This document shows, in pieces, positions 1 through 13,623 of a stretch of DNA of 13,623 nucleotides. The DNA lies in the NCBI RefSeq assembly GCF_000720115.1, contig NZ_JOIR01000072.1, forward strand, positions 1-13,623. Reading direction: 5' to 3'. The notes under the pieces were generated by a model. That model was not told where the DNA came from. It saw only the letters and a program-made list of their open reading frames with translations, and made no database searches. Source of the stretch: Streptomyces sp. NRRL F-2580 (GTDB taxonomy: Bacteria > Actinomycetota > Actinomycetes > Streptomycetales > Streptomycetaceae). Made by a program: the position numbers and the translations under genes. Each line of letters begins with the position of its first letter. The first letter of the stretch is position 1.

Positions 1-10
1 CCCGCCCCCG

Positions 11-120: not shown

Positions 121-151
121 GCGCTCGGGCACGCCGAAACCGTCCGGGCCA

Positions 152-162
152 CCCCGCAGGGG
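152..162 (-). terminator. Possible short hairpin after the RNase H/phosphatase stop
   Basis: CCCC-GCA-GGGG can fold into a 4-bp stem about 13 nt past the stop codon of the minus-strand gene. It is short and has no T-run. It is offered only as a weak candidate for a 3' end, and the tandem repeat beyond it may matter as much. Confidence 0.2.
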
Positions 163-174
163 CTACGGCAGGGG

Positions 175-1602: not shown

Positions 1603-2345
1603 CAGATGCCCGAGTCCGCCGTACGGACCAGGATGCGGCCGCAGTTCTCGTGACGTACGACCTGGTCGCGGGGCGCGGCCTTGATCTCGTTCACCTCGGC
1701 CATGTCGAGCTCCAGCCGGCAGCCCTCGCAGCGGCGCTGGTACAGGCGCGCGGCGCCGACCCCGCCCTGCTTGACGCGGATCTTCTCGTACAGGGCCATC
1801 AGGTCCGCCGGCATGGACGTGACGATCACCTCGCGGTCCTTGGTGACCTTCGCGGCCTCGGCGTCGATCTCGGCGGTGGCCGTGTCCCGGCGCTCGGTGG
1901 CGTCCGCCACCTTGGCCTCCAGGGCGGAGACGCGCTCGGTGAGCTCGGTGACGCGCTCCGTCGCGGCCTCCAGGCGCTCCATGACCTCCAGGACCACGTC
2001 CTCCAGGTCGCCCTGGCGCTTGGCGAGGGAGACGACCTCGCTCTGCAGGTTCGCCAAGTCCCGGGCCGAGATGCCGACGCCGGAGTCCAGCCGCTGCTGG
2101 TCGCGGACGGCGCGCTGGCGCACCTGGTCGACGTCCTGCTCGGCCTTGGTCTGCTCGCGCGCGGTGTCGCTCGCCTGGGTCTGGGCGGCGACGAGCAGGT
2201 CGCGCTGCTGCGTCAGGTCCTTGGTGAGCGAGTCGAGCTCGGCGTGCTCGGGCAGCGACTTGCGCTTGTGGGTGAGCTGAGACAGCCGGACGTCCAGCGC
2301 CTGGACGTCGAGAAGTCGGATCTGGTCGGCGGGCTCGGCGTTCAG
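1602..2345 (-). CDS. Coiled-coil zinc-ribbon protein (C4-type zinc ribbon family), CTG start
   Basis: A 247-residue protein. Residues about 10-175 are rich in charged heptads (QALDVRLSQLTHKRKSL onward), predicting a long antiparallel coiled coil. The C-terminus holds a zinc-ribbon-like site, C206-x2-C209 (CEGC) and H232-x2-C235 (HENCGRILVR). This is the family that sits between Nif3 and RNase H/CobC genes in actinobacteria (Rv2229c type). Its molecular role is not established; nucleic-acid binding or a scaffold is possible. The start is the notable point. The conserved N-terminus (NAEPADQIRLLD) is preceded in frame only by CTG at 2345-2343; there is no ATG, GTG or TTG nearby. A GGAG Shine-Dalgarno sequence sits 7 nt before the CTG. 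The CTG overlaps the upstream stop as CTGA, and the gene's own stop overlaps the next start as TGATG. Confidence 0.88.
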   Translation of the reverse strand: MNAEPADQIRLLDVQALDVRLSQLTHKRKSLPEHAELDSLTKDLTQQRDLLVAAQTQASDTAREQTKAEQDVDQVRQRAVRDQQRLDSGVGISARDLANLQSEVVSLAKRQGDLEDVVLEVMERLEAATERVTELTERVSALEAKVADATERRDTATAEIDAEAAKVTKDREVIVTSMPADLMALYEKIRVKQGGVGAARLYQRRCEGCRLELDMAEVNEIKAAPRDQVVRHENCGRILVRTADSGI

Positions 2346-3199
2346 TTGGGGGCTCCAGGGATAGAAGGGTGTGTGACGGACGGCGCGTGCGCCGTCCAGG
2401 GGTCGGTGACCGTGCGCGAGACATGGGTGCGCAGACCCCAGCCCTTGCGCTCGGAGATCGCGTCGAGCTGCGCGGCGGCCTGCTCGCACCAGGGCCACTC
2501 GGTGGCCCAGTGGGCGGCGTCGACGAGGGCGAGCGGGCTCTGCTCGCGGGCCTCGGACACCGGGTGGTGGCGCAGGTCGGCGGTCAGGAAGGCGTCCACG
2601 CCCGCGGCCCTGACCTGCTCGAAGAGGCTGTCGCCGGAGCCTCCGCTGACGGCGACGGTACGGATGAGGGCGTCCGGGTCGCCCGCGAAGCGGATGCCCT
2701 GCGCGGTCTGCGGCAGCCAGGCGGCGGCGCGGGCCGCGAACTCGCGCAGGGTCTCGGGGTGGTCCAGTTCGCAGAGCCGGCCGAGGCCGCGGCGGCCCTC
2801 GGGGTCGGTCGGGTCGGGCACCAGCGGGCCGGTGATCCGCAGGTCGAGCGCGCCGGCGAGGGCGTCGGAGACGCCCGGGTCGGCGGTGTCGGCGTTGGTG
2901 TGGGCGACGTGCAGCGCGATGTCGTTCTTGATCAGCGTGTGCACGACGCGGCCCTTGAAGGTGCCGGCCTCGACGGTGGTGGTGCCCCGCAGATAGAGGG
3001 GATGGTGGGTGACGATCAGGTCGGCGCCCAGCTTCACCGCCTCGTCGGCGATCACCTGGACGGGGTCCACGGCGAACAGGACCCGGCTGACCTCGGCTTC
3101 GGGGTCGCCGCAGACGGTTCCGACGGCATCCCACTGCTCGGCCCGCGAGGGGGGCCAGAGAGCGTCCAGCGCGGCGATGACTTCAGAGAGACGGGGCAC
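2342..3199 (-). CDS. Nif3-like dinuclear metal-centre protein
   Basis: A 285-residue protein of the Nif3/YbgI/DUF34 family. Motifs in order are EQWDAVG (21-27), AVDP (43-46), the metal-binding VTHHPLYLRG (H65, H66), AHTNAD (H100-D104), the SGGSGDS loop, ADLRHHP, and a C-terminal DAAHWATEWPW with H230 and E234. These histidines and acids bind two divalent metals in family members. The biochemical role remains poorly defined; some members have been linked to GTP cyclohydrolase-related or hydrolase activity. It is the first gene of the three-gene block, and its stop overlaps the CTG start of the zinc-ribbon gene. The start is GTG with no clear Shine-Dalgarno sequence. Instead TAGCCT lies 6 nt before the GTG, suggesting a leaderless transcript. 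Confidence 0.92.
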   Translation of the reverse strand: MPRLSEVIAALDALWPPSRAEQWDAVGTVCGDPEAEVSRVLFAVDPVQVIADEAVKLGADLIVTHHPLYLRGTTTVEAGTFKGRVVHTLIKNDIALHVAHTNADTADPGVSDALAGALDLRITGPLVPDPTDPEGRRGLGRLCELDHPETLREFAARAAAWLPQTAQGIRFAGDPDALIRTVAVSGGSGDSLFEQVRAAGVDAFLTADLRHHPVSEAREQSPLALVDAAHWATEWPWCEQAAAQLDAISERKGWGLRTHVSRTVTDPWTAHAPSVTHPSIPGAPN

Positions 3200-3205
3200 G
3201 GGCCA

Positions 3206-3211
3206 AGGCTA
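3206..3211 (-). promoter_or_regulatory. Candidate -10 box for a leaderless Nif3 transcript
   Basis: On the minus strand TAGCCT (TAnnnT) is followed by exactly six bases, TGGCCC, and then the GTG start at 3199. No Shine-Dalgarno sequence is visible, and no convincing -35 hexamer is seen 16-18 nt upstream. The geometry is that of Streptomyces leaderless promoters. Confidence 0.4.
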
Positions 3212-3239
3212 CCGTCCCCGTCACCACGACCTGCCCGTA

Positions 3240-3347
3240 CTACTTGACCAGGAAACCGCGCAGGTCGTCGAGGACCTTGTCGGCGGCGGTCACGCCGAGG
3301 CCGAGGTACAAACCTGGGGGGGTGGGGGCGGAGGGCCGACCGAGCAT
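3240..3347 (-). CDS. Possible 35-residue small protein or C-terminal gene remnant
   Basis: I do not recognise this ORF. Its last 22 codons, from TAC to AAG before the TAG stop (YLGLGVTAADKV and the following residues), use G or C in the third position almost without exception. This looks like genuine coding sequence, as does the amphipathic helical composition. The upstream part (MLGRPSAPTPPGL) crosses a seven-G run and has no Shine-Dalgarno sequence. It may therefore be a small gene ahead of the Nif3 gene, or the tail of a decayed gene joined by a frameshift at the G-run. It ends about 40 nt before the Nif3 start on the same strand. Confidence 0.3.
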   Translation of the reverse strand: MLGRPSAPTPPGLYLGLGVTAADKVLDDLRGFLVK

Positions 3348-3521
3348 CCGGTAAGGCACTTGACGTCGCCCCACCCCAAACGCCCCGATATCGCACAGCA
3401 CAATCGCCTCGTCCACCACAAACGAATCGCCACCCGGACACCCGTATGTGTGAAGCCGCCCTGGTCGTGTTGTTCACCGGGAAGCCCGAAAACTAGCTTC
3501 CCCTCCGGAGGTGACGCACGG
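3348..3521. other. Intergenic region between the divergent Nif3 block and the unknown gene
   Basis: This stretch of about 175 bp holds no convincing gene. It carries a possible rightward promoter, TTGTTC (3470-3475), an 18-nt spacer and TAGCTT (3494-3499). It also has a perfect 7-bp inverted repeat, GGGAAGC/GCTTCCC (3479-3485 and 3496-3502). Its base composition is less G+C-rich than the surrounding genes. Confidence 0.5.
3470..3499 (+). promoter_or_regulatory. Possible promoter for the 3522 gene, overlapping a 7-bp hairpin
   Basis: TTGTTC and TAGCTT are separated by 18 nt. The -10 element lies inside the loop and right arm of the inverted repeat GGGAAGC-N10-GCTTCCC (3479-3502), which ends four bases before the GGAGG ribosome binding site. 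Either an operator or an RNA hairpin near the ribosome binding site is possible. Confidence 0.3.
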
Positions 3522-4592
3522 ATGTCTGTCTGTGCCATCGAAATGACGACCATGGCCCCGTTCACGATCGCGGCGGACGGGTCGTACGCCGCCCGGCTTG
3601 CCGGGGAGGGGGAGGCGCGCTTCGTGGAGCGCTGGACCCTGGCCGGGCCCGAGCCGTACGCGGTTCCGCTGCCGCTCTCGCAGCCCGAGGAGGCCGACAG
3701 CGAGGTGCTGCCGCTGACCGACGGGCGGGTGCTGATCCACCGGCGGGTCGCGGAGCGGCACGCCTTCGCGCTGCTGTACCCGACGGGCGCGGCGGCCGGG
3801 CCGCGCACCGGGGAGCTCCAGCTGGGCGCGGTGGACGCGGAGGAGGGCGTACGGGTGCGGCTGCTCCCGCCGTCCCCGGAGGGCTCCGACGCCTTCGCGC
3901 TGGCCTCGGCGGACGGGGTGACCACGGTGTGGCAGGTGGCCGGGTGCTCCTTCGGGCCGCAGCCGGTCGCCCGGATCCCGGGGCGGTGCTCCGGCGGTGT
4001 GTGGCTGGACCGGGTGGGCCGGCTGCTGGCCCTGGACCGTGAGCTGGAGGGCACGACCAAGGCCGTCGCCGTGGACCTGGGGCGCGGCGAGGTCTCCCCG
4101 CTGCTGCAGATCACCGAGGACAGTGACGACCGGCTGCTGCTGGCGGACCCGGACAGCGGGTTGCTGCTGATCCGCTCCGACGCCCCGGGCGAACCGCGCC
4201 TGGGCTGGGGGGTGCTGGGCAGCTCGCGTCCGGTGCGCTTCCCGGAGTGCCTGCGGCTCGGGGAGGCGCTCCCCTTCGCCGTACAGCCGGGCCAGGCCCT
4301 GATGCCGGAGACCTGCGGGGTGGCGTTGCGGCTGCCCGAGGGGGACATCGCCCTGTGGCGTCCTGCCGACCGTCACGTGTTCCGGCTGGCCGCCCCGGCC
4401 GGCTGGCTCGGCGGTGCGGGGCTGTGGAGTCCGCAGGGCCGCCTGCACCTGCCGTGCGCGACGCCGGACGTGCCGTGCGGGATCCTCGGCCTGACGCTGC
4501 CCGTGTCTCCTCCCCCGCCGGTCCGGCTGGATCCGCCGCCGGCTCCGCCCCGCCCGGTGCCCCTCCAGCAGGCTCCGCTGTCGGGGCGGTAG
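3522..4592 (+). CDS. Conserved protein of unknown function, possible beta-propeller-like fold
   Basis: A 356-residue protein that I cannot assign to a named family. GGAGG at 3507-3511 lies 10 nt before the ATG. The alternative ATG at 3543 would remove seven residues. No signal peptide or membrane segment is apparent. The body consists of repeated short hydrophobic strands separated by turns (for example VLPLTDGRVLIHRRV, FALASADGVTTVWQVAG and GLLLIRSDAPGE). These recall the repeating four-stranded blades of WD40-like propellers, but there is no clear WD signature. The C-terminal 40 residues are very proline-rich (VSPPPPVRLDPPPAPP), suggesting an unstructured tail or a protein-binding segment. 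It is a single gene, convergent with the SDR gene. Confidence 0.75.
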   Translation: MSVCAIEMTTMAPFTIAADGSYAARLAGEGEARFVERWTLAGPEPYAVPLPLSQPEEADSEVLPLTDGRVLIHRRVAERHAFALLYPTGAAAGPRTGELQLGAVDAEEGVRVRLLPPSPEGSDAFALASADGVTTVWQVAGCSFGPQPVARIPGRCSGGVWLDRVGRLLALDRELEGTTKAVAVDLGRGEVSPLLQITEDSDDRLLLADPDSGLLLIRSDAPGEPRLGWGVLGSSRPVRFPECLRLGEALPFAVQPGQALMPETCGVALRLPEGDIALWRPADRHVFRLAAPAGWLGGAGLWSPQGRLHLPCATPDVPCGILGLTLPVSPPPPVRLDPPPAPPRPVPLQQAPLSGR

Positions 4593-4607
4593 GGCGGGCG
4601 CGGCGGC

Positions 4608-4645
4608 GGCCGGCGGCTGGTGGCCGGCGGCTGGTGGCCGGCGGC
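4608..4645. repeat. 14-bp tandem repeat between convergent genes
   Basis: GGCCGGCGGCTGGT occurs at 4608-4621 and 4622-4635, followed by a partial third copy (GGCCGGCGGC) to 4645. It fills most of the 68-bp gap between two convergent stop codons, the usual place for a bidirectional terminator. I see no clean hairpin with a T-run. Confidence 0.75.
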
Positions 4646-4660
4646 CCGTGGCGTTCCCGG

Positions 4661-5602
4661 TCAGGCGTGCTTGAGCCCCAGGACCTCCGTCGCGGCGAAG
4701 GTCTCGTTCGCCGGGCGGGAGTCGTAGTGCGGGGTCAGGACCTCGTCGAGCTCCTCGTAGGAGAAGGCCTCCTTGCCCGTGTCGAACTTGGCGGCCACCT
4801 TCGGTCGTTCCATGACGACGACGATGCCGCCGTGTACGACGAACAGCTGGCCGTTGGCCTTGGCGGCGGCGGGCGAGGCCAGGTAGCCGACGAGCGGGGA
4901 GACGTGCTCGGGGGCGAGGGCGTCCAGCTTGCCCTCCTCCGGGACCTCGAAGCCGGCGAAGACGTCCTCGGTCATCCGGGTGCGGGCGCGCGGGCAGATG
5001 GCGTTGGCCGTCACCCCGTACTTGGCGAGCGCCAGGGCGGTCGAGGTGGTCAGGCCCACGATGCCGCCCTTGGCCGCCGCGTAGTTGGGCTGGCCGGCCG
5101 AGCCGCCGAGGAAGGCCTCGGAGGAGGTGTTGACGATCCGGCCGTAGACCGGGCCGCCCGCCGCCTTCGACCGCTCGCGCCAGTGCACGGAGGCGAAGTG
5201 CGTGGTGTTGAAGTGGCCCTTGAGGTGGACCCGGATCACCGCGTCCCATTCCTCCTCCGACATCGAGAAGACCATCCGGTCGCGCAGGATGCCCGCGTTG
5301 TTGACCAGGATGTCGAGCTTCCCGAAGCTGCTCACGGCCAGCTCGACCAGCTCGCGCGCCTGCTCGAAGTCGGCCACGTCGCCCAGGTGCGCCACCGCCC
5401 GGCCGCCCCCCGCGCGGATCTCCGCGGCGACCTCCTCCGCCGGGGCGGCCGAGGCCTCCCCGGAGCCGTCCCGTCCGGGTTGCCCGAAGTCGTTGACGAC
5501 CACGCTCGCGCCGAGCCGTGCGAGCTCGATCGCCTCGGCCCGGCCGAGCCCGCGGCCCGCGCCCGTGACGATGGCGGAGAGTCCCTCAAGTGGCAGTGAC
5601 AT
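4661..5602 (-). CDS. SDR-family 3-hydroxyacyl-CoA dehydrogenase (MFE-2-like)
   Basis: A 313-residue short-chain dehydrogenase. The glycine-rich nucleotide motif TGAGRGLG is at 13-20, D75 lies in the LGDV segment, NNAG is at 101-104, and the catalytic set is S161, Y174 and K178 (NYAAAKGG). The extra length and the segments VVVNDFG and GHFNTTHFASVHWRERSK resemble the dehydrogenase part of the peroxisomal multifunctional enzyme 2 (HSD17B4) and the mycobacterial Hsd4A/ChsB1 group. These oxidise 3-hydroxyacyl-CoA esters of branched or steroid side chains. FabG-like annotation as 3-oxoacyl-ACP reductase is also common for this family. It is the last gene of the operon, 33 nt after the alcohol dehydrogenase. 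A GAGGGGA Shine-Dalgarno sequence lies about 9 nt before the ATG. The partner hydratase is the first gene of the same operon, which supports a beta-oxidation role. Confidence 0.9.
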   Translation of the reverse strand: MSLPLEGLSAIVTGAGRGLGRAEAIELARLGASVVVNDFGQPGRDGSGEASAAPAEEVAAEIRAGGGRAVAHLGDVADFEQARELVELAVSSFGKLDILVNNAGILRDRMVFSMSEEEWDAVIRVHLKGHFNTTHFASVHWRERSKAAGGPVYGRIVNTSSEAFLGGSAGQPNYAAAKGGIVGLTTSTALALAKYGVTANAICPRARTRMTEDVFAGFEVPEEGKLDALAPEHVSPLVGYLASPAAAKANGQLFVVHGGIVVVMERPKVAAKFDTGKEAFSYEELDEVLTPHYDSRPANETFAATEVLGLKHA

Positions 5603-5635
5603 CCGTACGGTTCCCCTCGGAATCGGCAGAACGGG

Positions 5636-6712
5636 TCAGAGTTCGATGCAGGTGCGCAAGGCGACGCCCGTGCGCATCTGGTCGAGGGCCTCGTTGATCT
5701 CGGCGAGGCTCACCCGGTGGGTGATCAGGTTCTCCAGGTCGATGCGGCCGGCCCGCCAGAGCGCGATGGTGCGCTCGTAGGAGCGGAGCACGTCGCCGCC
5801 GCCGTACATCGACGGGAGGATCTTCTTCTCGTCGAAGAACAGCGAGAACATGTTGATCTGGAAGTTGTCGTCGAGGGCGCCCGCGCCGACGATGACGACG
5901 GAGCCGCCGCGGCGCGTCATCTCGTACGCCTTCTGCGCGGTCGCGGACTTGCCGACGACCTCGAAGACGTAGTCGAAGCCCTCGCCGGCCGTGATCCGGT
6001 TCTTGGCGTCGGCGAACTCCTCGGGGGAGACCGCCTCGGTGGCGCCGAACCGCAGCGCCGCCTCGCGCCGCGACCGGACCGGGTCCACGGCGATGATCTG
6101 GGCGGCGCCCTGGACCTTGGCGCCCTGGATGACGGATATGCCGACGCCGCCGCAGCCGATGACGGCGACCGCGGAGCCGGCCTCCACCTTGGCGGTGTTG
6201 ATGGCCGCGCCGAGCCCGGTGGTGACGCCGCAGCCGATCAGCGCCGCGATGTCGAAGGGCAGGTCGTCGGGGATCGGGATGGCGCAGGCGGCCGGTACGA
6301 CCATCTCCTCGGAGAAGGTGCCGGTGCCGGCGAAGCCGAAGATGTCGCTGGCCGCCCGCTTGAAGTTGGGGGTGGCGACGTTCCCGAAGGCCTCCAGGCA
6401 CAGGTGCCCCTGGCCGCGGTTGCAGGAGGGACAGTGCCCGCACGGCGGCAGCCAGCAGACGAGGACGCGGTCGCCGATCTTGTGGCTGGTGACCCCGTCG
6501 CCGACGTCGGTGATCACGCCGGAGCCCTCGTGGCCGGGGATGAAGGGGGCGGGCTGGGGCAGTACGCCGCTCATCGCGGAGAGGTCGGAGTGGCACAGGC
6601 CGGTGGCCTTGATGCGGATCCTGACCTTGCCGGGGCCGAAGCCCACGGCCTCCATGTCGTCGACGACTTCGAGCTTGTCCTGGCCGATCTCGCTCTGCAG
6701 TGCTGCGCGCAC
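5636..6712 (-). CDS. Zinc-dependent alcohol dehydrogenase (MDR superfamily)
   Basis: A 358-residue medium-chain dehydrogenase. Catalytic zinc ligands are C40, H61 with E62 (PGHEGSG) and C161. The structural zinc lobe has C91, C94, C97 and C105. The Rossmann motif GCGGVG is at 186-191, and D210 at the end of the next strand favours NAD(H) over NADP(H). It resembles class III-type bacterial alcohol dehydrogenases. The GTG start at 6712 is preceded by AAGGAG at 7 nt spacing; the longer open frame upstream antisense-overlaps the hydratase gene. It lies between hydratase and SDR genes with 26- and 33-nt gaps, so it is clearly in the operon. Its substrate is unknown. Oxidation of a side-chain alcohol or release of an aldehyde intermediate would fit the context. 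Confidence 0.92.
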   Translation of the reverse strand: MRAALQSEIGQDKLEVVDDMEAVGFGPGKVRIRIKATGLCHSDLSAMSGVLPQPAPFIPGHEGSGVITDVGDGVTSHKIGDRVLVCWLPPCGHCPSCNRGQGHLCLEAFGNVATPNFKRAASDIFGFAGTGTFSEEMVVPAACAIPIPDDLPFDIAALIGCGVTTGLGAAINTAKVEAGSAVAVIGCGGVGISVIQGAKVQGAAQIIAVDPVRSRREAALRFGATEAVSPEEFADAKNRITAGEGFDYVFEVVGKSATAQKAYEMTRRGGSVVIVGAGALDDNFQINMFSLFFDEKKILPSMYGGGDVLRSYERTIALWRAGRIDLENLITHRVSLAEINEALDQMRTGVALRTCIEL

Positions 6713-6738
6713 GGTGCGGCTCCTTAAAGGGCGTACGA

Positions 6739-7593
6739 CTACGAGTGTTCGACGACGGTGTCGGCGAGGACCGGCGCGTCGTCCCGTTCGACGGCGGTCA
6801 CCGAGACCAGGACGCGGGCGGGCTCCTGCCACATCCGGATGCGGAGCGTCTCGCCCGGGAAGACGATCCCGGCGAAGCGCGTGCGGTAGGCGCGGACCCG
6901 GGAGACGTCCCCGCCGAGCGCCGTGTCGACGACGGCCTTGAGGGTCATCCCGTACGAGCACAGGCCGTGCAGGATGGGCTGGTCGAAGCCGGCCAGCTTG
7001 GCGAACTCGGGGTCGGCGTGCAGGGGGTTCCAGTCGCCGGAGAGGCGGTAGAGGAGCGCCTGGTCCTCGCGGATGTGCCGCTCCTCGACCCGGTCGGGGG
7101 CGCGGCCCGGCAGCTCCTCCTTGACGGAGGGGCCGCGCTCACCGCCGAAGCCGCCCTCTCCCCGTACGAAGATCTGCGCGTCGCTGGTCCACAGCGGCCC
7201 GTCGGCGTCCGCGACCTCGGTGCGCAGCACGATCACGGCCGCCTTGCCCTTGTCGTACAGGGCGGCGACCTTGGCGGAGGAGGTGGCGTCGCCCTTGACG
7301 GGGATGGGCCGGTGCAGCTCGATGGACTGGCCGCCGTGCAGGACGTGGGCGAGGTTGACGTCGATCCCGGGGGCGGCGAGGCCGCCCATCATGGCCATGC
7401 CGGCGCCGGCGACGGTCGCGAAGCTGGGGAGGACGTGGAGTTTGGATTCGAGGGTGTAGCGCAGTTCGTCCGGGTCCGTGGCCGGCAGGCCCGCGCCGAG
7501 GCCGAGGTGGTAGAGCTGGATGTCCTTGTGGTCCCAGCCGATGTTCCCCTGGCGGGGGTCGGCGGCGAGGGCCCTGGCGGCATCGATCGGCAT
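6739..7593 (-). CDS. MaoC-family enoyl-CoA hydratase 2 (hot-dog fold)
   Basis: A 284-residue hydratase with an N-terminal partially degenerate hot-dog domain and a C-terminal catalytic one, the arrangement of hydratase 2 in MFE-2 and of the mycobacterial Hsd4B/ChsH3 group. The active-site motif is SGDWNPLHADP with D187 and H192, followed by LAGFDQPILHG. It adds water to trans-2-enoyl-CoA to give (R)-3-hydroxyacyl-CoA, the substrate of the SDR two genes downstream. The ATG start has AGGGAG 10 nt upstream. It is the first gene of a three-gene operon. A KstR-like palindrome lies about 100 bp upstream of the start, and a large hairpin lies between the two. The bulky-acyl specificity is an inference from family resemblance and context. 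Confidence 0.92.
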   Translation of the reverse strand: MPIDAARALAADPRQGNIGWDHKDIQLYHLGLGAGLPATDPDELRYTLESKLHVLPSFATVAGAGMAMMGGLAAPGIDVNLAHVLHGGQSIELHRPIPVKGDATSSAKVAALYDKGKAAVIVLRTEVADADGPLWTSDAQIFVRGEGGFGGERGPSVKEELPGRAPDRVEERHIREDQALLYRLSGDWNPLHADPEFAKLAGFDQPILHGLCSYGMTLKAVVDTALGGDVSRVRAYRTRFAGIVFPGETLRIRMWQEPARVLVSVTAVERDDAPVLADTVVEHS

Positions 7594-7635
7594 GAGGATG
7601 CGGCTCCCTGTCGTTGGAATGTCGCTGCCCTGGAA

Positions 7636-7677
7636 GACCTCGGTGCGGCCGTCCGCACCGTCGGCCGCACCGAGGTC
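7636..7677 (-). other. 16-bp perfect inverted repeat in the leader of the hydratase operon
   Basis: GACCTCGGTGCGGCCG (7636-7651) and CGGCCGCACCGAGGTC (7662-7677) are exact complements around a 10-nt loop. The loop itself contains CGCACCG (7654-7660), which can pair instead with CGGTGCG of the left arm (7641-7647), so two mutually exclusive stems are possible. It lies between the operator and the ribosome binding site of the hydratase gene, so it should be transcribed as leader RNA. No T-run follows. An attenuator, an RNA-stability element or a second protein-binding site are all possible. Confidence 0.75.
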
Positions 7678-7685
7678 GTAAACGG

Positions 7686-7717
7686 GGCCGGTTCTAGAAC
7701 GCGTTCTAGGACCGGCC
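7686..7717. promoter_or_regulatory. KstR-like operator within an extended palindrome
   Basis: The 14-bp core TAGAACGCGTTCTA at 7695-7708 matches the KstR operator consensus TnnAACnnGTTnnA at every fixed position. The perfect palindrome is CTAGAACGCGTTCTAG (7694-7709). Symmetry continues to GGCCGG and CCGGCC arms at 7686 and 7717 with one mismatched pair (7693/7710). It lies between the hydratase operon (minus) and the receiver-like gene (plus). TetR-family repressors bind such sites. The regulator itself is not in the window. Confidence 0.75.
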
Positions 7718-7735
7718 GGTGAGGGAATGTATAAC
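7707..7735. promoter_or_regulatory. Overlapping candidate promoters beside the operator
   Basis: On the plus strand TAGGAC (7707-7712), a 17-nt spacer and TATAAC (7730-7735) form a possible promoter whose -35 box touches the operator. On the minus strand TATACA (7733-7728) could be the -10 box for the hydratase operon, which would place the operator just downstream of the start point. Neither has a strong -35 match. Confidence 0.3.
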
Positions 7736-7790
7736 GCACGCCCCCGCAGTTGGGAAGACCAGCCGGAAAGACTCCTGACTTCGCGTCAGA

Positions 7791-7796
7791 TATGCT
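7791..7796 (+). promoter_or_regulatory. Candidate -10 box for a leaderless transcript of the receiver-like gene
   Basis: TATGCT is followed by six bases, TTCCCG, and then GTG at 7803. No Shine-Dalgarno sequence is visible. An inverted repeat CTGAC-N5-GTCAG (7775-7789) sits immediately upstream and could be an operator. Confidence 0.4.
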
Positions 7797-7802
7797 TTCC
7801 CG

Positions 7803-8165
7803 GTGGACGAAATGCCCGTGGAACACCGTCAGGCCCGCGCCCTGCGGGTCCTGCTCGATCCGCAGAACCCGGCCCTCGCGCTCCAGCTCGGCCTCGTGCC
7901 GGACATCGAGGTCGTGCGGGACCTGACGGCCCGCCCGGCGGTGGCGCTGGTCGAGGAGGTCACGGCCGTGACGGCCCTGCTGGCGGAGGATCCGGAGTGC
8001 CGGGTCCTCGTCCTGACGGGCTCGGCGCACCCCGGCCTGGCCGCCTCCGCGCTCGACGCCGGGGCGGCGGGCCTGATCCTGCGCGACGGCCCGGTCGAGG
8101 ACCTGGCGGACTCGATCCGCCGCGCCTCGATGGGCGAGACGGTGGTCGATCCGGCCCTGGGGTGA
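7803..8165 (+). CDS. Degenerate response-regulator receiver-like protein without DNA-binding domain
   Basis: A 120-residue protein resembling the receiver domain of NarL/LuxR-type regulators. LRVLLD matches the first strand, CRVLVLTGS matches the strand with the conserved Ser/Thr, and AGAAGLILRDGPVEDLADSIRRASMGETVVDP matches the last strand and helix, where those regulators normally continue into a linker and helix-turn-helix. Here the protein stops at that point. The acidic pair of the first loop is missing, the phosphoacceptor segment reads PAVALVEEV with no aspartate at the expected place, and the usual LLKD lysine is replaced (LILRD). Phosphorylation is therefore unlikely. It may be an interaction-only pseudo-receiver or a decayed regulator. 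The start is GTG at 7803, probably leaderless; ATG at 7812 is the alternative. Confidence 0.75.
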   Translation: MDEMPVEHRQARALRVLLDPQNPALALQLGLVPDIEVVRDLTARPAVALVEEVTAVTALLAEDPECRVLVLTGSAHPGLAASALDAGAAGLILRDGPVEDLADSIRRASMGETVVDPALG

Positions 8166-8199
8166 ATCCTTATCCGGGGGTCGCGCCTCTTGTGTGTAC

Positions 8200-8221
8200 G
8201 TGCCGATGCCAAGGTCGGCAC
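8200..8221 (+). other. 7-bp inverted repeat upstream of the sigma-factor unit
   Basis: GTGCCGA (8200-8206) and TCGGCAC (8215-8221) are exact complements around an 8-nt loop. It lies between the receiver-like gene and the ribosome binding site GGAGG at 8229-8233. It has no T-run, so it could be a weak terminator for the gene before it or an operator for the unit after it. Confidence 0.45.
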
Positions 8222-8238
8222 ATGACCCGGAGGTTGTC

Positions 8239-8334
8239 GTGACCGCTGTTCTCGTGGGTGCCGGTGCGCTCGTCCTGCTCTGCACGTGCGTCCTCGTACT
8301 GCGTCGCCGTGGACGGGGCCGGACCCGTGGCTGA
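8239..8334 (+). CDS. 31-residue predicted membrane microprotein coupled to the sigma factor
   Basis: GTG at 8239 is preceded by GGAGG (8229-8233) at 5 nt spacing, the best ribosome binding site in the neighbourhood. The product starts VTAVLVGAGALVLLCTCVLV, a single hydrophobic helix with two cysteines, and ends in a strongly basic tail (LRRRGRGRTRG). It is thus predicted to be a short membrane peptide with its tail in the cytoplasm. Its stop codon lies inside the sigma-factor coding region; the sigma GTG at 8327 is only five bases before that stop. The overlap suggests translational coupling. It resembles no family I can name. It could instead be a leader peptide whose translation opens the sigma start. 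Confidence 0.55.
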   Translation: MTAVLVGAGALVLLCTCVLVLRRRGRGRTRG

Positions 8335-8872
8335 CCGCACGGACTGGCCCGATGAGGCGCTGATCGTCGCCGCGCAGGGCGGTGACCTCGACTCGCTCAC
8401 CGCCCTGGTCACCGGATCGCACCCGAACGTGCGGCGCTTCGCGCACTCGCTGTGCGCGTCGCGCGAGGACGCCGAGGACGCGGCTCAGGAGGCGCTGATC
8501 ATCCTCTACCGGAGGATCGGCATGCTGCGTGCTTCCGGCGCCCTGGCCTCGTGGATGTTCCGCATCGTCCGCAACGAGTGCCTGCGCCGGGCCCGGCTGG
8601 TGCCGCGGGAGCGTGCGCCGCTGCCGGAGACCGCCGTGATGTCGGCCGAGGACGAGGTGCTGCAGCGGCTGGAGGCGGGGCGGGTGGCGGAGGCCATCGC
8701 CGCGCTGCCGGCGGACCAGCGGCGCGTACTGATCATGCGGGACGTCCAGGGCTACAGCGGGCGGATGGCCGCCGAGTCCCTCGGTCTCAGCACAGCCGCG
8801 ATGAAGTCGCGGCTCCACCGGGCCCGCGCGGCCGTTCAGCACTCCTTGGGAGACACCCGTGCCCTTCACTGA
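8327..8872 (+). CDS. ECF-type RNA polymerase sigma factor
   Basis: A 181-residue sigma-70 family protein of the ECF group. Region 2 (about 20-90) contains SREDAEDAAQEALIILYRR and the promoter-melting segment ASWMFRIVRNECLRRAR. Region 4 (about 120-171) contains ALPADQRRVLIMRDVQGYS and the helix-turn-helix AAESLGLSTAAMKSRLHRARAAV. Region 3 is absent, as expected. The GTG at 8327 is chosen because the protein then begins VADRTDWPDEALIVAAQGG, close to the usual ECF start; further upstream the frame overlaps the 31-residue ORF. The 3' end overlaps the start of the 100-residue membrane protein by 14 nt. A classical zinc-binding anti-sigma gene is not seen, so the small membrane proteins on either side are the obvious candidate partners. 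Confidence 0.88.
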   Translation: MADRTDWPDEALIVAAQGGDLDSLTALVTGSHPNVRRFAHSLCASREDAEDAAQEALIILYRRIGMLRASGALASWMFRIVRNECLRRARLVPRERAPLPETAVMSAEDEVLQRLEAGRVAEAIAALPADQRRVLIMRDVQGYSGRMAAESLGLSTAAMKSRLHRARAAVQHSLGDTRALH

Positions 8873-9161
8873 CGCCCCTTCGTCCGTGTCCGCCTCGGGC
8901 TCCGCCTCGGGCTCCGGTTTCGCGAGCGCGTCCGTGCTGCGGCACCTGGCGCGCGGCGCGGTGGGCTTCGGCGCGCTGATCGCGGCCTTCGCCCTCCTCC
9001 CGGTCTTCGGCCCGGCCACCCTGCTCCTCGCCCCGGTCGGCCTGGTCGCCCTGCGCGGCTGCCCGATGTGCTGGGCGATCGGCCTGGCCGAGACCGTCTC
9101 CCGGGGCCGGCTCCGCCGGGAGTGCGTGGACGGCCGCTGCGAACTGAGACCGGCCCGGTAG
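8859..9161 (+). CDS. Small membrane protein with CxxC and C-x4-C motifs
   Basis: A 100-residue protein. A low-complexity Ser/Ala/Gly N-terminus (8-25) is followed by hydrophobic helices across about 33-65 (GAVGFGALIAAFALLPVFGP and TLLLAPVGLVAL). The cysteine motif RGCPMCWAIGLAET (C68, C71) follows, then a basic segment and CVDGRCEL (C89, C94) near the end. The helical part recalls small YgaP/DUF2892-like membrane proteins, but I do not assign it. GTG at 8859 is preceded by GGGAGA at about 6 nt and lies inside the sigma gene (14-nt overlap), so expression is coupled. Two cysteine pairs beside an ECF sigma factor make a redox- or metal-responsive anti-sigma or accessory role conceivable. That is an inference. 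Confidence 0.75.
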   Translation: MPFTDAPSSVSASGSASGSGFASASVLRHLARGAVGFGALIAAFALLPVFGPATLLLAPVGLVALRGCPMCWAIGLAETVSRGRLRRECVDGRCELRPAR

Positions 9162-9215
9162 GGGGCCGGGTGGCGGGCGGGGAGGTGCGCCGTGCCGCCG
9201 GGAGCCGGGACTTCG

Positions 9216-9221
9216 TAGGCT
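9216..9221 (+). promoter_or_regulatory. Candidate -10 box for a leaderless transcript at 9228
   Basis: TAGGCT is followed by six bases, GGCCCG, and then ATG. There is no Shine-Dalgarno sequence in the usual window. The spacing is identical to the TAnnnT-N6-start arrangement before the Nif3 and receiver-like genes. Confidence 0.4.
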
Positions 9222-9227
9222 GGCCCG

Positions 9228-9713
9228 ATGGGCCTCTTCGACAAGCTGACCGGCACCCGGCGCCCCGCCCCCGGCACGGCGCCCCGCTCCGCCGCGGAGG
9301 TCCGGGCCGCGCTGCTGGCGCTCGACGGCCCGGACGCGCCGTTCTTCCTGCGCGAGGGCACCGCGAAGGAGGGCGCCCAGCTGGTGGCGGTGTGGCGGCT
9401 CCCGCGGGGCGGCCCGCACCCCGTACGGGGCCACACCCTGCTGCGCCTGGACGCGCGGGCCCGCGAGGTGCGCACGCTCGACGAACGGTGGGAGCGCCTG
9501 GAGCCGGGCGAGCGGTCGTTCGACGGCGGGAACCTGAAGCGCATCCGCGGCCCGGTCAACTCGTTCTCCCAACAGTGGACGTTCGAAAGGGGCCCGAACG
9601 GCCGCCGCCGCATGGTCCCGGAGTCCGGCTTCAGCTCGGCGGCGGTGAAGGCCCCCCTCCGCGAAGCCGTTCTCGCGGCGGGGTGGACCTGGCGGGGCGT
9701 CTTCCGGCTGTGA
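9228..9713 (+). CDS. Conserved protein of unknown function (161 aa)
   Basis: I do not recognise a named family. It begins MGLFDKLTGTRRP, a type of N-terminus common in small cytoplasmic actinobacterial proteins. The middle has an alternating strand-like pattern (LVAVWRLPRG, GHTLLRLDARAREVRTLDERWERL), and the C-terminus ends in AGWTWRGVFRL. No signal peptide, membrane helix, cysteine or obvious catalytic motif is visible. It lacks a Shine-Dalgarno sequence and is probably read from its own leaderless promoter rather than with the sigma unit 66 nt upstream. It converges on the thiolase gene. Confidence 0.75.
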   Translation: MGLFDKLTGTRRPAPGTAPRSAAEVRAALLALDGPDAPFFLREGTAKEGAQLVAVWRLPRGGPHPVRGHTLLRLDARAREVRTLDERWERLEPGERSFDGGNLKRIRGPVNSFSQQWTFERGPNGRRRMVPESGFSSAAVKAPLREAVLAAGWTWRGVFRL

Positions 9714-9765
9714 CCGTCGCGCAGCTGCGCGGGTGCGGCGCCGCTGCGGGGGGCGCGGCCGAAAG

Positions 9766-9816
9766 ATCGGGGCTCCGCCCCGGACCCCGCGCCTCAAACG
9801 CCGGCGGGGCTGAAAT
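9766..9816. terminator. Bidirectional hairpin repeat between convergent genes
   Basis: GGGGC-TCC-GCCCC (9769-9781) is followed by a second stem CCCCGC/GCGGGG (9785-9790 and 9804-9809) enclosing GCCTCAAACGCCG. This double-hairpin arrangement, with the CCTCAAACGCCGG loop, is a sequence I recognise as recurrent at convergent gene ends in Streptomyces. It lies in the 109-nt gap between two facing stop codons, which fits a bidirectional terminator. There is no T-run. Confidence 0.65.
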
Positions 9817-9822
9817 CGCCCG

Positions 9823-11043
9823 TCACCTGCGGAGCAACGTCACCACCGCCGCGCCGCCCAGGCCGATGTTGTGCGCCAGGCCGACCCGGGCGCCGGGGAC
9901 CTGCCGGGCACCGGCCTGACCCCGCAGCTGCCACACCAGCTCCGCCGCCTGCGCCAGCCCCGTCGCGCCGAGCGGATGCCCTTTGGAGATCAGCCCCCCG
10001 GAGGGGTTCACCACCCACCGCCCCCCGTACGTGGTCGCACCCGACTCCACCAGCTTCCCGGCGGCGCCGTCCCCGCACATGCCCAGCGCCTCGTACGTCA
10101 GCAGCTCGTTGATCGAGAAGCAGTCGTGCAGTTCCACCACGTCCACGTCCTCGATGCCGAGCCCCGAGTCCTCGTACACCCGCCGCGCCGCCGCCGCGGT
10201 CATGGGCTTGCCGACCACGTCGATGCACGAGCCCGACGCGAACGACTCCTCCGTGTCCGTGGTCATCGCCTGGGCGACGATCTCCACCGCCTTGTCGTGC
10301 AGCCCGTGCGCCACCACGAACCGTTCCGACACCACCAGTGCCGCCGCGGCCCCGTCCGAGGTCGGCGAGCACTGGAGCTTCGTCAGCGGCGCGTGGATCT
10401 CCTTCGCCGCCAGGATCTCCTCCACCGAGTACACGTCCTGGAACTGCGCGTTCGGGTTGTTCGCCGAGTGCCGGTGGTTCTTCGCGCCGACCGCCGCGAG
10501 CTGCGCGGCCGTGGTCCCGTACCGCTCCATGTGTTCCCGCGCCGCGTTGCCGAAGATCTGCGCGGTCGGCGGGGACATCTCGAAGCCGTGGCCGGCCGCC
10601 ATGATCCCGTAGTGGCGGGCCACCGGGGAGGTCTTGCCGAAATCATTGGCGGCTCCGCCGCGGGCGCCGCCGTCCGCCCCGCCGCCCAGCGCTCCGCGCT
10701 TCATCTTCTCGAAGCCCAGCGCCAGCACGCAGTCGTTCAGTCCGCCCTCCACGAACTGCCGCGCCATCATCAGTGCCGTCGAGCCCGTGGCGCAGTTGTT
10801 GTTGACGTTGTAGACCGGGACGCCGCTCAGCCCCAGCTCGTACGCGGCCCGCTGGCCGGCCGTGGAGGCCTGGAAGCAGTAGCCCACCGGGACCTGTTCG
10901 ACCAGCCCGTAGTCCACGCCCGCGTCGGCGAGCGCGGCGGTCCCGGCCTCCTTCGCCATGTCCCAGTACTGCCAGTCCCGCGACTCCGGCTTCTCGAACT
11001 TCGTCATGCCGACGCCCACGATGTACGACTTTCGCGACTTCAT
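9823..11043 (-). CDS. SCP-x-type thiolase (lipid-transfer protein family)
   Basis: A 406-residue thiolase closely resembling the thiolase part of peroxisomal sterol carrier protein X along its length. Landmarks are [11 protein letters not shown] (9-19), the acylated cysteine C84 in [58 protein letters not shown] (H306), the conserved [17 protein letters not shown] (H356) and AHNIGLGG (H391). The second cysteine of ordinary degradative thiolases is replaced by this HN motif, as in SCP-x enzymes. It cleaves 3-oxoacyl-CoA, and the family favours bulky or 2-methyl-branched acyl chains. The sterol-carrier (SCP2) domain is absent. A glycine-rich stretch at 117-130 is a local oddity. The ATG has GGAG 9 nt upstream. 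It lies 20 nt after the acyl-CoA dehydrogenase, so the two form an operon. Confidence 0.93.
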
Positions 11044-11063
11044 GCCCGATGACTCCTAGTCCC

Positions 11064-13229
11064 TTAGTCCCTGGGGAGGCCGAGAATCCGCTCGGCGACG
11101 ACGTTGAGCTGGACCTGCGTGGTGCCCCCGGCGATGGTCAGGCAGCGGGACATGAGCATGCCGTGCACCGCCCGCTCCCCCGCGCCCTCCCGTACGGCGC
11201 CCGCTGGTCCCAGCAGTTCGAGCGCGAGCTCGGCGGTCCGCTGCTGGTGCGGGGTCTGGACGAGTTTGCGTACGGACGCGCCCGCGCCCGGCTCCAGTCC
11301 GGAGACCTGTTGGAGGGTGGTGCGCAGCCCGATGCAGGCCAGGGCGTGCGCCTCGGCGGCGAGGGCGCCGATCCGCGCCCTGTACGTCCCGTCGAGGTCG
11401 GCGGCTTGGGCGAGGAGCGCTTCCAGGCTGGGGGTACCTCCCGGGCCGCCAGGCCCAGGGGGAGTGTCGAAGGTCATCTGGTCGGCCATGTGGACCCGTT
11501 CGTTGCCGAGGGTGTTGCGGGCGACCTTCCAGCCGCCGTCGGCGGCGCCGACCAGGGCGTCCGCCGGGAGTTCCACGTCGTCGAACCAGACCTCGTTGAA
11601 GAGGGCCTCGCCGGTGATCTCCTTCAGCGGCCGGACGTCGATGCCGGGGGTGTTCTTCATGTCGACGACGAAGTAGCCGAGCCCCTTGTGCTTGGGTGCG
11701 TCCGGGTCGGTGCGGGCCAGCAGGATCCCGAGGTCGGCGCTGTGCGCGGAACTCGTCCACACTTTTTGTCCGTTGACCCTCCAGGTGCCGTCTCCGGCCC
11801 GCTCGGCCTTCGTCCGCAGCGAGGCCAGGTCGGAGCCCGCCCCCGGCTCCGAGAAGAGCTGGCACCAGGTGAGGTCCCCGCGCAGGGTCGGCAGGACGTA
11901 GGCGTCCCGCTGCGCCTGCGTGCCGTAGGCGAGCAGGGAGGGCACGACCCAGGTGGCGATCCCGAGGTCGGCGACCTTGACCCCGGCCGCGGCCAGTTCC
12001 TGCTGGACGACGAGCTGCTCGACGGGGCCCGCGCCGAGCCCGTACGGGGGCGGCAGGTAGGGGGCCGCGTAGCCGGTGGGGGCCAGGATCCGACGGGCGG
12101 CGGCCGGGTCGAGCCCGCGCGCGTCCTCGATGGCGGTCCGGGCCTTCGCCCGGTACGCCTCGGCCTCCGCCGGCAGTTCCAGGCGCAGCTCGCGCCGCGC
12201 CCCGCCCGCGGCGAGCCGTACGGCCCGCAGGCGGTGTCCGTCGCCGGACCCCAGCAGCTGGCGGGCGACGAGCGCTCGCCGGAGGTGGATGTGGGCGTCG
12301 TGCTCCCAGGTGAAGCCGATCCCGCCGAGGATCTGGATGCAGTCCTTGGCGCAGGAGTACGCGGCGTCCAGGGCGCTCCCGGCGGCGAGTGCGGCCACGA
12401 GCGAGCGCACGTCGGCGGGTTCGTCCATGGCCTGCGCGGCGTCCCAGGCCAGTGCCCGGGCCTGTTCCAGCCGGACCAGCATGTCGGCGCACAGGTGCTT
12501 GACGCCCTGGAACCGTCCGATGGGCCGGCCGAACTGCTCGCGCACCTTGGCGTATTCGGCGGCAGTGTGCAGGGTCCAGGCGGCGGTGCCGCAGGCGTCG
12601 GCGGCGAAGAGGGTGCAGGCCAGGTCGCGCACCAGCGCCGCGTCCAGCTCCAGCAGCCGGTCGGGCGCGGTGGCGACCCCGCGCGCCCGGACCTCGGCGG
12701 TGGGGCGGGTCGGGTCCGCGCTCTCGTGCGTACGGATGTCCAGCGCGGCGGCGTCGACGGCGAACCACCGGGTGCCGTGCACGGCTTCGGCCGCGAGCAG
12801 GACGAGGTCGGCCTCGCCGGCGCCGAGCACGGGCGGCGCAAGTCCGTCGAGCAGGTACCCGCCGCCCTCGACGGCCACGGCGGTCAGGGTCCCGGGCCCC
12901 AGCGCGACCGCCCCGACCCGCCCGGCGAGGGGCTCGGCACCGGTCCGCGCCAGCAGTACGGAGGCCAGCGCGCTCGGCAGGTACGCCCCGGGCAGCGCGG
13001 CCCGGGCCGCCTCCTCGACGACGACGGCCAGGTCGAGCAGGGTCCCGCCGTCCAGGTGCGGTTCCAGCAGGCCCTGGGCGGTCATCGCGTCCCAGTAGGC
13101 GGGCCGCGTCCCGGTCTGCGGCGGGGTGTCGAGCAGCTTGCGCACCTCTTCGCGAGGCACGGCCCGCGCGACCCATCCGCGCACCGCCTCGGCCAGCTCG
13201 CGCTGCTGTTGCGTGATTCCGATGCCCAT
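11064..13229 (-). CDS. Two-domain fused acyl-CoA dehydrogenase (FadE34/ChsE3-like)
   Basis: A 721-residue protein made of two acyl-CoA dehydrogenase units. The N-terminal unit (about 1-340) has REQFGRPIG (230-238) and ILGGIGFTWEHDAHIHLRR, with E309 at the usual catalytic-base place, but a poorly conserved middle domain. The C-terminal unit (about 365-721) has LFSEPGAGSDL (from 459), NGQKVWTSSAH and IAGGTTQVQLN (from 699), where the Glu of EGT-type motifs is lost. This fused layout and size match mycobacterial FadE34, a single-chain version of the alpha2-beta2 steroid side-chain dehydrogenases. It oxidises acyl-CoA to enoyl-CoA with FAD, the first step of beta-oxidation. The ATG at 13229 is chosen over an ATG 25 codons upstream because the KstR-like box and a TAGTCT -10 box lie between them. 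The steroid substrate is inferred. Confidence 0.9.
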   Translation of the reverse strand: MGIGITQQQRELAEAVRGWVARAVPREEVRKLLDTPPQTGTRPAYWDAMTAQGLLEPHLDGGTLLDLAVVVEEAARAALPGAYLPSALASVLLARTGAEPLAGRVGAVALGPGTLTAVAVEGGGYLLDGLAPPVLGAGEADLVLLAAEAVHGTRWFAVDAAALDIRTHESADPTRPTAEVRARGVATAPDRLLELDAALVRDLACTLFAADACGTAAWTLHTAAEYAKVREQFGRPIGRFQGVKHLCADMLVRLEQARALAWDAAQAMDEPADVRSLVAALAAGSALDAAYSCAKDCIQILGGIGFTWEHDAHIHLRRALVARQLLGSGDGHRLRAVRLAAGGARRELRLELPAEAEAYRAKARTAIEDARGLDPAAARRILAPTGYAAPYLPPPYGLGAGPVEQLVVQQELAAAGVKVADLGIATWVVPSLLAYGTQAQRDAYVLPTLRGDLTWCQLFSEPGAGSDLASLRTKAERAGDGTWRVNGQKVWTSSAHSADLGILLARTDPDAPKHKGLGYFVVDMKNTPGIDVRPLKEITGEALFNEVWFDDVELPADALVGAADGGWKVARNTLGNERVHMADQMTFDTPPGPGGPGGTPSLEALLAQAADLDGTYRARIGALAAEAHALACIGLRTTLQQVSGLEPGAGASVRKLVQTPHQQRTAELALELLGPAGAVREGAGERAVHGMLMSRCLTIAGGTTQVQLNVVAERILGLPRD

Positions 13230-13236
13230 GCGCGGC

Positions 13237-13242
13237 AGACTA
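13237..13242 (-). promoter_or_regulatory. Candidate -10 box for a leaderless acyl-CoA dehydrogenase transcript
   Basis: On the minus strand TAGTCT is followed by seven bases, GCCGCGC, and then the ATG. It overlaps the KstR-like operator by two bases, so a bound repressor would block polymerase directly. No Shine-Dalgarno sequence precedes the ATG. Confidence 0.4.
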
Positions 13243-13254
13243 GAACACGTTCCA
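13241..13254. promoter_or_regulatory. KstR-like operator of the acyl-CoA dehydrogenase/thiolase operon
   Basis: TAGAACACGTTCCA fits TnnAACnnGTTnnA at all eight fixed positions. It lies 12 to 25 bp upstream of the acyl-CoA dehydrogenase start. It shares TAGAAC-C-GTTC- with the operator of the hydratase operon at 7695-7708, pointing to one common TetR-type repressor. Confidence 0.75.
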
Positions 13255-13502
13255 ATCTGACGGAAGGTCAGATGCCGGACTGCATCGCCCGGCGTGGCGT
13301 TCACTCTTGTTCATTGCAACGCCACAGAGGGGAAACGTTGCATTGAAATCAAAACCATTGCAATGAAATACCTGCTGTGAGCTGGATAAACATCGTCAGT
13401 GCGCAACGAGGTCGTTGCCAGGTCTGTGAATGCAACGTAGCTTTTCGTTCATCAGAAACGGCGGGCCGTCTGAGTGCCCGCCACTGGAGAAAGAGAAGAA
13501 CG
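13255..13502. other. Regulatory intergenic region with clustered TTGCA-type boxes
   Basis: This stretch is unusually A+T-rich for the window and holds no convincing gene. It contains CATTGCAACG (13312), CGTTGCATTG (13336), the perfect palindrome CATTGCAATG (13356-13365), the inverted repeat GCAACGA-GG-TCGTTGC (13403-13418) and AATGCAACG (13429-13437). TTGCATTGAAAT and TTGCAATGAAAT (13338 and 13358) are direct repeats exactly 20 bp apart, two helical turns. The boxes lead up to the DUF4097-type gene and overlap its promoter, so a dedicated DNA-binding regulator is likely. Confidence 0.6.
13415..13443 (+). promoter_or_regulatory. Promoter of the DUF4097-type gene
   Basis: TTGCCA (13415-13420), a 17-nt spacer and TAGCTT (13438-13443) give good housekeeping-type spacing. 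The -35 box is inside the inverted repeat GCAACGA-GG-TCGTTGC, and AATGCAACG directly abuts the -10 box, so repression by occlusion is easy to imagine. The predicted leader is about 50 nt. Confidence 0.55.
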
Positions 13503-13623
13503 ATGCAGAAGTTCGCCACCGCCGCCCCCGTCTCCGCCGTCCTGGACATCCCCGCGGGCCGCATCCGCTTCATCGCCGCCGACCGCGCCGACACCACCGT
13601 CGAGGTCCTCCCCGCGAACGCCG
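13503..13623 (+). CDS. DUF4097-type beta-strand repeat protein, N-terminal fragment
   Basis: Only the first 40 codons lie in the window; the gene continues past the right edge. The protein begins MQKFATAAPVSAVLDIPAGR and then has IRFIAADRADTTVEVLPANA. This matches the N-terminus of the DUF4097 family, proteins predicted to form repeated beta strands, with no signal peptide in this subgroup. The function is unknown. ATG 13503 is preceded by a purine-rich ribosome binding region (GGAGAAAGAGAAG). It is divergent from the acyl-CoA dehydrogenase operon and has its own promoter with clustered TTGCA boxes. Confidence 0.75.
   Translation, partial: MQKFATAAPVSAVLDIPAGRIRFIAADRADTTVEVLPANA

Follow-up and report, generated by a model that had tools for sequence, protein, structure and literature searches.

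The closest described counterpart of the system considered here is the regulon of the repressor KstR (Rv3574) of Mycobacterium and its relatives, and binding of mycobacterial KstR has been reported from gel shifts at the boxes of Rv3515c/Rv3516, Rv3503c/Rv3504 and Rv3573c/Rv3574 (Kendall et al. 2007, PMC1995591). The same work names SCO2319 of Streptomyces coelicolor as a possible KstR orthologue, with 32% identity and no synteny, and differs from the account below in that its passages on this protein give no Streptomyces operators or targets. In a study of 31 genomes, two of which are from Streptomyces, KstR and its sites were traced back to the ancestor of Mycobacterium and Rhodococcus, and more distant organisms were noted to have KstR paralogues (PMC3388012). 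In Nocardioides simplex the cholesterol oxidase gene (choE) lies at a putative KstR-type site, as it does here; unlike the genome considered here, which has no strong match to KshA, N. simplex catabolises steroids, and it also has KstR2 sites (PMC9782250, PMC7807495). Here we describe a putative KstR-like circuit in Streptomyces sp. NRRL F-2580, starting from a stretch of 13,623 nucleotides (contig NZ_JOIR01000072.1, positions 1 to 13,623; the window) in which two KstR-type boxes precede two operons of beta-oxidation genes.

We put at about 85% the probability that a KstR-like TetR repressor, whose gene is at another place in this genome (C55:15275-15895), uses box 1 and box 2 as its operators, a reading drawn from the sites, their conservation, the regulator gene and the gene content, and from which binding, repression, an inducer and a sterol substrate are predicted. 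The boxes and the genes behind them are as follows.

7695..7708, no strand: predicted KstR-type operator (box 1), the perfect palindrome TAGAACGCGTTCTA, upstream of the operon of the MaoC, alcohol dehydrogenase and short-chain dehydrogenase genes
6739..7593, minus strand: MaoC-type 2-enoyl-CoA hydratase, 284 amino acids, first gene of operon 1 (Pfam MaoC_dehydratas and MFE-2_hydrat-2_N)
5636..6736, minus strand: zinc-type alcohol dehydrogenase of operon 1, starting at either 6712 or 6736 (Pfam ADH_N and ADH_zinc_N)
4661..5602, minus strand: short-chain dehydrogenase (SDR) of the PRK07792 family, operon 1 (NCBIfam NF005862, 482 bits against a cut-off of 414)
13241..13254, no strand: predicted KstR-type operator (box 2), TAGAACACGTTCCA, 12-25 bp 5′ of the acyl-CoA dehydrogenase ATG
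11064..13229, minus strand: fused two-part, FadE34-like acyl-CoA dehydrogenase, 721 amino acids, first gene of operon 2 (Pfam acyl-CoA dehydrogenase domains)
9823..11043, minus strand: SCP2-type thiolase or lipid-transfer protein, operon 2 (NCBIfam NF006102, 617 bits against a cut-off of 436; PDB 6hsj, an SCP2-thiolase)

The pattern TNNAACNNGTTNNA, referred to below as the strict pattern, matches the 13,623 bases of the window twice, at box 1 and box 2 and nowhere else, compared with a mean of 0.01 matches in 200 dinucleotide-preserving shuffles, none of which held two. This confirms the initial annotation as to the presence, position and pattern of TAGAACGCGTTCTA and TAGAACACGTTCCA; its remark that these are the only AACnnGTT palindromes in the window was mistaken: two further cores, at 5847 and 9558, fall within called genes. 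Box 1 lies 102-115 bp 5′ of the MaoC start codon. The acyl-CoA dehydrogenase and thiolase genes are separated by 20 bp, and from strand and spacing the MaoC, alcohol dehydrogenase and SDR genes appear to form one tight operon and the dehydrogenase and thiolase genes the other.

A single protein of the genome carries the TetR_C_20 domain (PF17925; 87.1 bits against a cut-off of 26.5), and this is the product of the gene at C55:15275-15895. Its best PDB match is an unnamed TetR protein (3bjb, 143 bits), closely followed by the KstR structures 3mnl, 5cw8, 5ua2 and 5aqc (about 141 bits), with the next match at only 46 bits; the search for a KstR homologue that had been proposed as a check thus found one, and its best named matches are KstR. 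Compared with mycobacterial KstR (80 KstR loci, 77 of them titled Mycobacteriaceae), identity is 74% in the helix-turn-helix and 67% in the DNA-binding domain. Between the regulator gene and a divergent glycosyltransferase gene there is a box, TAGAACAAGTTTCA, that begins 164 bp 5′ of the regulator start; by its presence there it is a putative autoregulatory operator. The regulator occurs in 57 of 61 genomes of the genus (58 matches) and in 103 of 296 genomes of the class (at E 1e-20); a strict box is also present in the fetched sequence of all 23 further same-genus regulator loci taken from the class search. SCO2319 is presumably the same genus-wide protein. In one genome (G054) about 20 kb separate the FadE34-like gene from the regulator.

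Conservation of the boxes was followed in five sets of promoters: 30 regulator loci fetched of 58 matches, 30 MaoC loci of 50, 30 EchA19-like loci of 45, all 22 acyl-CoA dehydrogenase loci, and the 20 of the close cholesterol oxidase clade, leaving aside the two-piece copy of G054. The strict pattern is kept in 28 of 29 other loci at the regulator (0.029 loci expected by base composition), 28 of 29 at MaoC (0.019 expected), where GAACNNGTTC is present in 29 of 29, and 21 of 21 at the acyl-CoA dehydrogenase (0.015 expected). The core AACNNGTT is more widely kept still, at 29/29 regulator, 29/29 MaoC, 21/21 acyl-CoA dehydrogenase, 19/19 cholesterol oxidase and 28/29 EchA19-like loci. When every 14-mer of a promoter was ranked blind by how many loci keep it with at most one mismatch, the box came out as the single best 14-mer for the acyl-CoA dehydrogenase. 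Among 2,816 inverted-repeat shapes, GAAC-N2-GTTC comes first at MaoC (30/30) and cholesterol oxidase (20/20), ranks lower at the acyl-CoA dehydrogenase (14/22) and the regulator (17/30), and was not found in the other 29 EchA19 regions.

Throughout the genome the strict pattern occurs at 27 places, compared with 15 for a reversed control, and with three or fewer mismatches allowed the control exceeds the motif (1,137 for the motif versus 2,239 per strand). Because the bare consensus is only mildly enriched, the scan by itself was set aside as too weak a proof, and conservation and context carry the case. All 27 matches were inspected: eleven are in called genes, six have the form TTGAAC-N2-GTTCAA, four could not be assigned or look different, and six are at predicted regulon loci, namely box 1, box 2, the regulator, cholesterol oxidase, a FadE26-like gene (C6:22096) and a FadD19-like/EchA19-like pair (C18:17181), with the last box located between the two divergent genes. 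As a check on the initial annotation the scan was thus divided, placing boxes at the cholesterol oxidase, FadE26-like and FadD19/EchA19-like genes with 11 of the 27 matches inside called genes and 6 in another class. The FadE34, FadD19/EchA19 and FadE26 members of the KstR regulon, names that we assign from homology and arrangement, are all found behind boxes here. A further candidate, CAGAACGTGTTCTA (C4:6877), falls outside the strict pattern and is 5′ of another acyl-CoA dehydrogenase gene. Several other strict matches were set aside, either as unassigned or as not KstR-type: TGCAACAAGTTGCA, whose centre is 22 bp before a gene that is PadR-type by eye; the strict matches on C34, at C9:4376 and on C14, whose neighbours have no clear link (on C14 one of them is similar, by eye only, to CoA-transferase family III); and the six TTGAAC-N2-GTTCAA sites (L017:11428, L022:3315 and 3356, L030:3337, L031:3250 and 3294). 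The latter include two tandem pairs, no sterol link is evident by eye in the genes behind them, and the palindrome resembles the operator of another regulator. We also note TCGAACTTGTTCAA (L034:3388, C14:213387), whose centre is 255 bp 5′ of a gene that resembles, by eye, alpha-methylacyl-CoA racemase, a possible member of the regulon.

The cholesterol oxidase is a GMC-type protein (764 bits to 1coy) whose gene has two boxes. Of 20 close orthologues, 19 have the promoter box with three or fewer mismatches, and it is kept within one mismatch in 8 of 19 loci; ten more distant homologues (of 27 matched) were fetched and have no box in the scanned region. The second box is a strict match inside the signal-peptide codons (L018:3922-3935, C35:22421-22434), and a second GAAC-N2-GTTC is written in these codons in 20 of 20 close orthologues. 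KstR motifs inside coding regions are also given by Kendall et al. (PMC1995591). Rare codons fix the palindrome, with (G/A)GA and (G/A)GT in 20 of 20, compared with 5.7% GGA and 5.5% GGT among downstream glycine codons, and TCT is used at the palindrome in 13 of 20 versus 0 of 473 downstream serine codons. Two cautions apply to these figures: third bases are more often A or T throughout the N-terminal region (167 of 600 flanking codons), and the exact signal-peptide 14-mer is poorly retained, with 2 of 19 loci within one mismatch.

Comparison with mycobacteria made use of a 220-kb stretch around kstR of Mycobacterium ostraviense and of loci from four mycobacterial genomes. Several homologues in the M. 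ostraviense stretch lie near boxes: FadE34 (44.5% identical to the acyl-CoA dehydrogenase) has a box upstream, the FadE26-like dehydrogenase (49%) has one 124 bp upstream, the FadD19-like/EchA19-like pair (43% and 53%) has one between both genes, and an LLM oxidoreductase (52%, searched with the G054 copy, which is cut at its end) has one 48 bp upstream. Of two SDRs, one (50%) is preceded by a box at a distance of 410 bp and the other (49.5%) lacks one within 3 kb, and the nearest box to the MaoC homologue (49%) is 1.7 kb upstream; an Ltp4-like thiolase (55%) is also present. No close counterpart was found in this stretch for the window thiolase (28%) or alcohol dehydrogenase (26%), and none for cholesterol oxidase. 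We take Rv3515c/Rv3516, Rv3503c/Rv3504 and Rv3573c/Rv3574 to be fadD19/echA19, fadE26 and fadE34/kstR.

Orthology of the acyl-CoA dehydrogenase was not assigned by score, since the FadE34 beside kstR is outscored by another fused dehydrogenase in all four mycobacterial genomes (e.g. by 534 to 498 bits in G354); in a tree, the window protein clusters with the kstR-adjacent FadE34 proteins (split support 97/96, with a midpoint root only). The strict box is present at 4/4 mycobacterial FadE34 loci and at 0/8 of the other fused dehydrogenase loci fetched. The window MaoC is 49-53% identical to a MaoC protein encoded 36-94 kb from kstR in the four genomes, and this is its best genome-wide match in three of them, G354 having a higher-scoring gene elsewhere.

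A second palindrome accompanies the KstR-type boxes and was absent from the initial annotation:

7775..7789 (core TGAC-N5-GTCA at 7776-7788), no strand: second palindrome CTGAC-TTCGC-GTCAG, core present in 29/30 MaoC loci with a variable spacer
13255..13273 (core at 13258-13270), no strand: second palindrome ATCTGAC-GGAAG-GTCAGAT, core present in 21/22 acyl-CoA dehydrogenase loci

TGAC-N5-GTCA is found in the scanned upstream region of these loci and of 30/30 EchA19 loci, and was not found upstream of the regulator (0/30) or cholesterol oxidase (0/20). The arms are constant and the spacer letters vary, most at MaoC, less at EchA19 and little at the acyl-CoA dehydrogenase, with spacers other than N5 being rare in all three promoters. 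Among 2,816 combinations of arm and spacer, it ranks first at the acyl-CoA dehydrogenase, joint second at MaoC, and first at EchA19, where it is tied with its own nested form. Six copies occur in 199 kb of this genome, a sample chosen mostly around strict matches and so not random, compared with 1.3 expected: two are in the window, and the others are before an LLM gene, beside the C4:6877 box, between the FadD19-like and EchA19-like genes, and one elsewhere. The longer form TCTGAC-N5-GTCAGA is located near KstR-type boxes outside the window at L028:3137-3155 and L124:3392-3410, and before the LLM gene, where there is no KstR-type box, at L122:8443-8461. Because TGAC-N1-GTCA and TGAC-N10-GTCA occur five and six times in the same 199 kb, the N5 counts alone are no proof of the element, and conservation carries the case for this new palindrome beside the KstR-type boxes. 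In the 80 kstR loci, no copy was found up to 200 bp away from an exact TAGAAC-N2-GTTCTA, and no matching published operator was found in the open-access literature; MftR, BkaR and AccR were rejected since the motifs printed for them differ, and SAV151 since its printed motif has similar arms with a 10-base spacer, leaving N5 unmatched. The TGAC-N10-GTCA copies of this genome have arms similar to that SAV151 motif.

We propose that without substrate a KstR-like dimer would sit on each box. Box 2 all but abuts the start codon and should for that reason prevent transcription of the operon of the FadE34-like acyl-CoA dehydrogenase and the thiolase, and box 1 would likewise block the MaoC, alcohol dehydrogenase and SDR operon; the protein would also repress its own gene and those for the secreted cholesterol oxidase, the FadE26-like dehydrogenase and the divergent FadD19-like and EchA19-like proteins. 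An acyl-CoA (or acid) from a sterol or sterol-like branched side chain probably releases the repressor, and with one such signal, side-chain activation and beta-oxidation would be induced together. A second regulator, at TGAC-N5-GTCA, probably acts on the beta-oxidation promoters. We lean, with some reserve, towards a broader view in which sterol side-chain beta-oxidation in the genus is under two operators, the KstR-type box, shared with the regulator and cholesterol oxidase, and TCTGAC-N5-GTCAGA at MaoC, the acyl-CoA dehydrogenase, FadD19/EchA19 and LLM genes, served by another regulator; this would be a two-key lock needing both sterol and a second metabolic signal, with the KstR-type operator in the signal-peptide codons of cholesterol oxidase acting as a transcription roadblock.

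The circuit resembles the mycobacterial KstR regulon in its operator (consensus TnnAACnnGTTnnA), a putative autoregulatory box, a TetR_C_20 regulator with a closely similar helix-turn-helix, and the FadE34, FadD19/EchA19, FadE26 and other side-chain beta-oxidation genes, and differs from it in having a second palindrome near several boxes and no strong KshA. A number of observations count against the proposal that KstR-type control operates here. The regulator misses the NCBIfam KstR equivalog cut-off (NF033703, 199.1 versus 280 bits), though this is its best model, and its ligand domain is only about 36% identical to that of mycobacterial KstR; for these two reasons we call it KstR-like rather than KstR, and because of the second its inducer may differ. 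It is divergent from a glycosyltransferase gene and not from fadE34, and beyond the genus a strict box is present in only 1/5 fetched regulator loci. Conservation is also uneven, since cholesterol oxidase has the strict pattern in 12/19 other loci (0.024 expected), and the EchA19 box is imperfect, strict in 14/29 (0.030 expected) with GAACNNGTTC in 0/29. In the blind ranking, windows retained at least as well as the box number 8/340 at the regulator, 10/340 at MaoC, 7/417 at cholesterol oxidase and 30/340 at EchA19. To these may be added the 11/27 strict matches inside called genes and the mycobacterial MaoC loci, which in the four genomes lack a strict box within 1.5 kb. The outcomes that the initial annotation had said would count against a KstR-type regulon were, where open to testing, not obtained, given the KstR homologue, the box in its own promoter, the boxes at its targets and their genus-wide conservation, and the regulon reading is supported.

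The modest excess of genome matches over the reversed control, and the matches inside genes, would be in keeping with the two window boxes being chance palindromes, an idea that we reject on the basis of conservation and regard as practically negligible, given the 0.01 matches expected in the window and the retention at orthologous MaoC and acyl-CoA dehydrogenase loci. TetR proteins are numerous in such genomes, and a different one with the same operator taste might bind the window boxes, leaving the KstR-like protein to control only itself; this is quite improbable, as the genome has only one PF17925 protein and the same box is at the promoters of both the regulator and the targets, co-conserved across the genus. 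The protein at TGAC-N5-GTCA could instead be the main controller of the window operons, with the KstR-type boxes secondary, and the high rank of that palindrome at the acyl-CoA dehydrogenase, EchA19 (tied) and MaoC promoters and its presence before the LLM gene fit such an arrangement. We nevertheless think this unlikely, as the KstR-type box is about equally well kept at MaoC and the acyl-CoA dehydrogenase and is the only one of the two that reaches the regulator and cholesterol oxidase.

The substrate is the point at which an alternative deserves more weight. A strong KshA (KshA_C at about 300 bits) is present in only 2/61 genomes of the genus, any KshA_C match in 17/61 and one over the Pfam cut-off in 16; for ring cleavage, part of the KstR regulon and tested here through KshA, this genome gave only a Rieske relative at 70.6 bits (cut-off 23.3). 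Published work reports no steroid pathway in 55/57 Streptomyces genomes (Bergstrand et al. 2016, PMC4810484). The boxes and the KstR-like protein may therefore be real and the regulon may serve branched or isoprenoid acyl chains generally, with cholesterol oxidase incidental in some species; the diverged ligand domain and the restriction of close cholesterol oxidase orthologues with boxes to 20/61 genomes (besides the two-piece gene of G054) are in keeping with this. We treat it as a possibility to be taken seriously, short of probable: the FadD19-, EchA19-, FadE26-, ChsH2- and Ltp4-like genes under or beside boxes are a sterol side-chain set, cholesterol oxidase bears two boxes, and CYP125A13 of S. 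peucetius hydroxylates cholesterol at C-27 (PMC9728343). Because a strong KshA is so rare, the pathway seems to oxidise sterols and degrade their side chains without cleaving the rings.

Between the two operons, at 8258-9713, are genes for an extracytoplasmic function (ECF) sigma factor and two small proteins, which were not called between the thiolase and MaoC genes in G054. A small receiver-like open reading frame (7803-8165), divergent from MaoC, has weak NarL-type matches and no Pfam domain, and a tblastn match in only 9/30 MaoC loci, its own counted.

That a genus mostly lacking a strong KshA conserves a KstR-like regulator, the box before its gene and homologous targets argues for an older circuit, to which ring catabolism was later added or from which it was lost. 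For sterol conversion by Streptomyces it offers testable targets in one regulator, six boxed promoters and a second conserved operator, and from the latter one would predict that the pathway might be only partly induced when nothing but the KstR-like gene is deleted.

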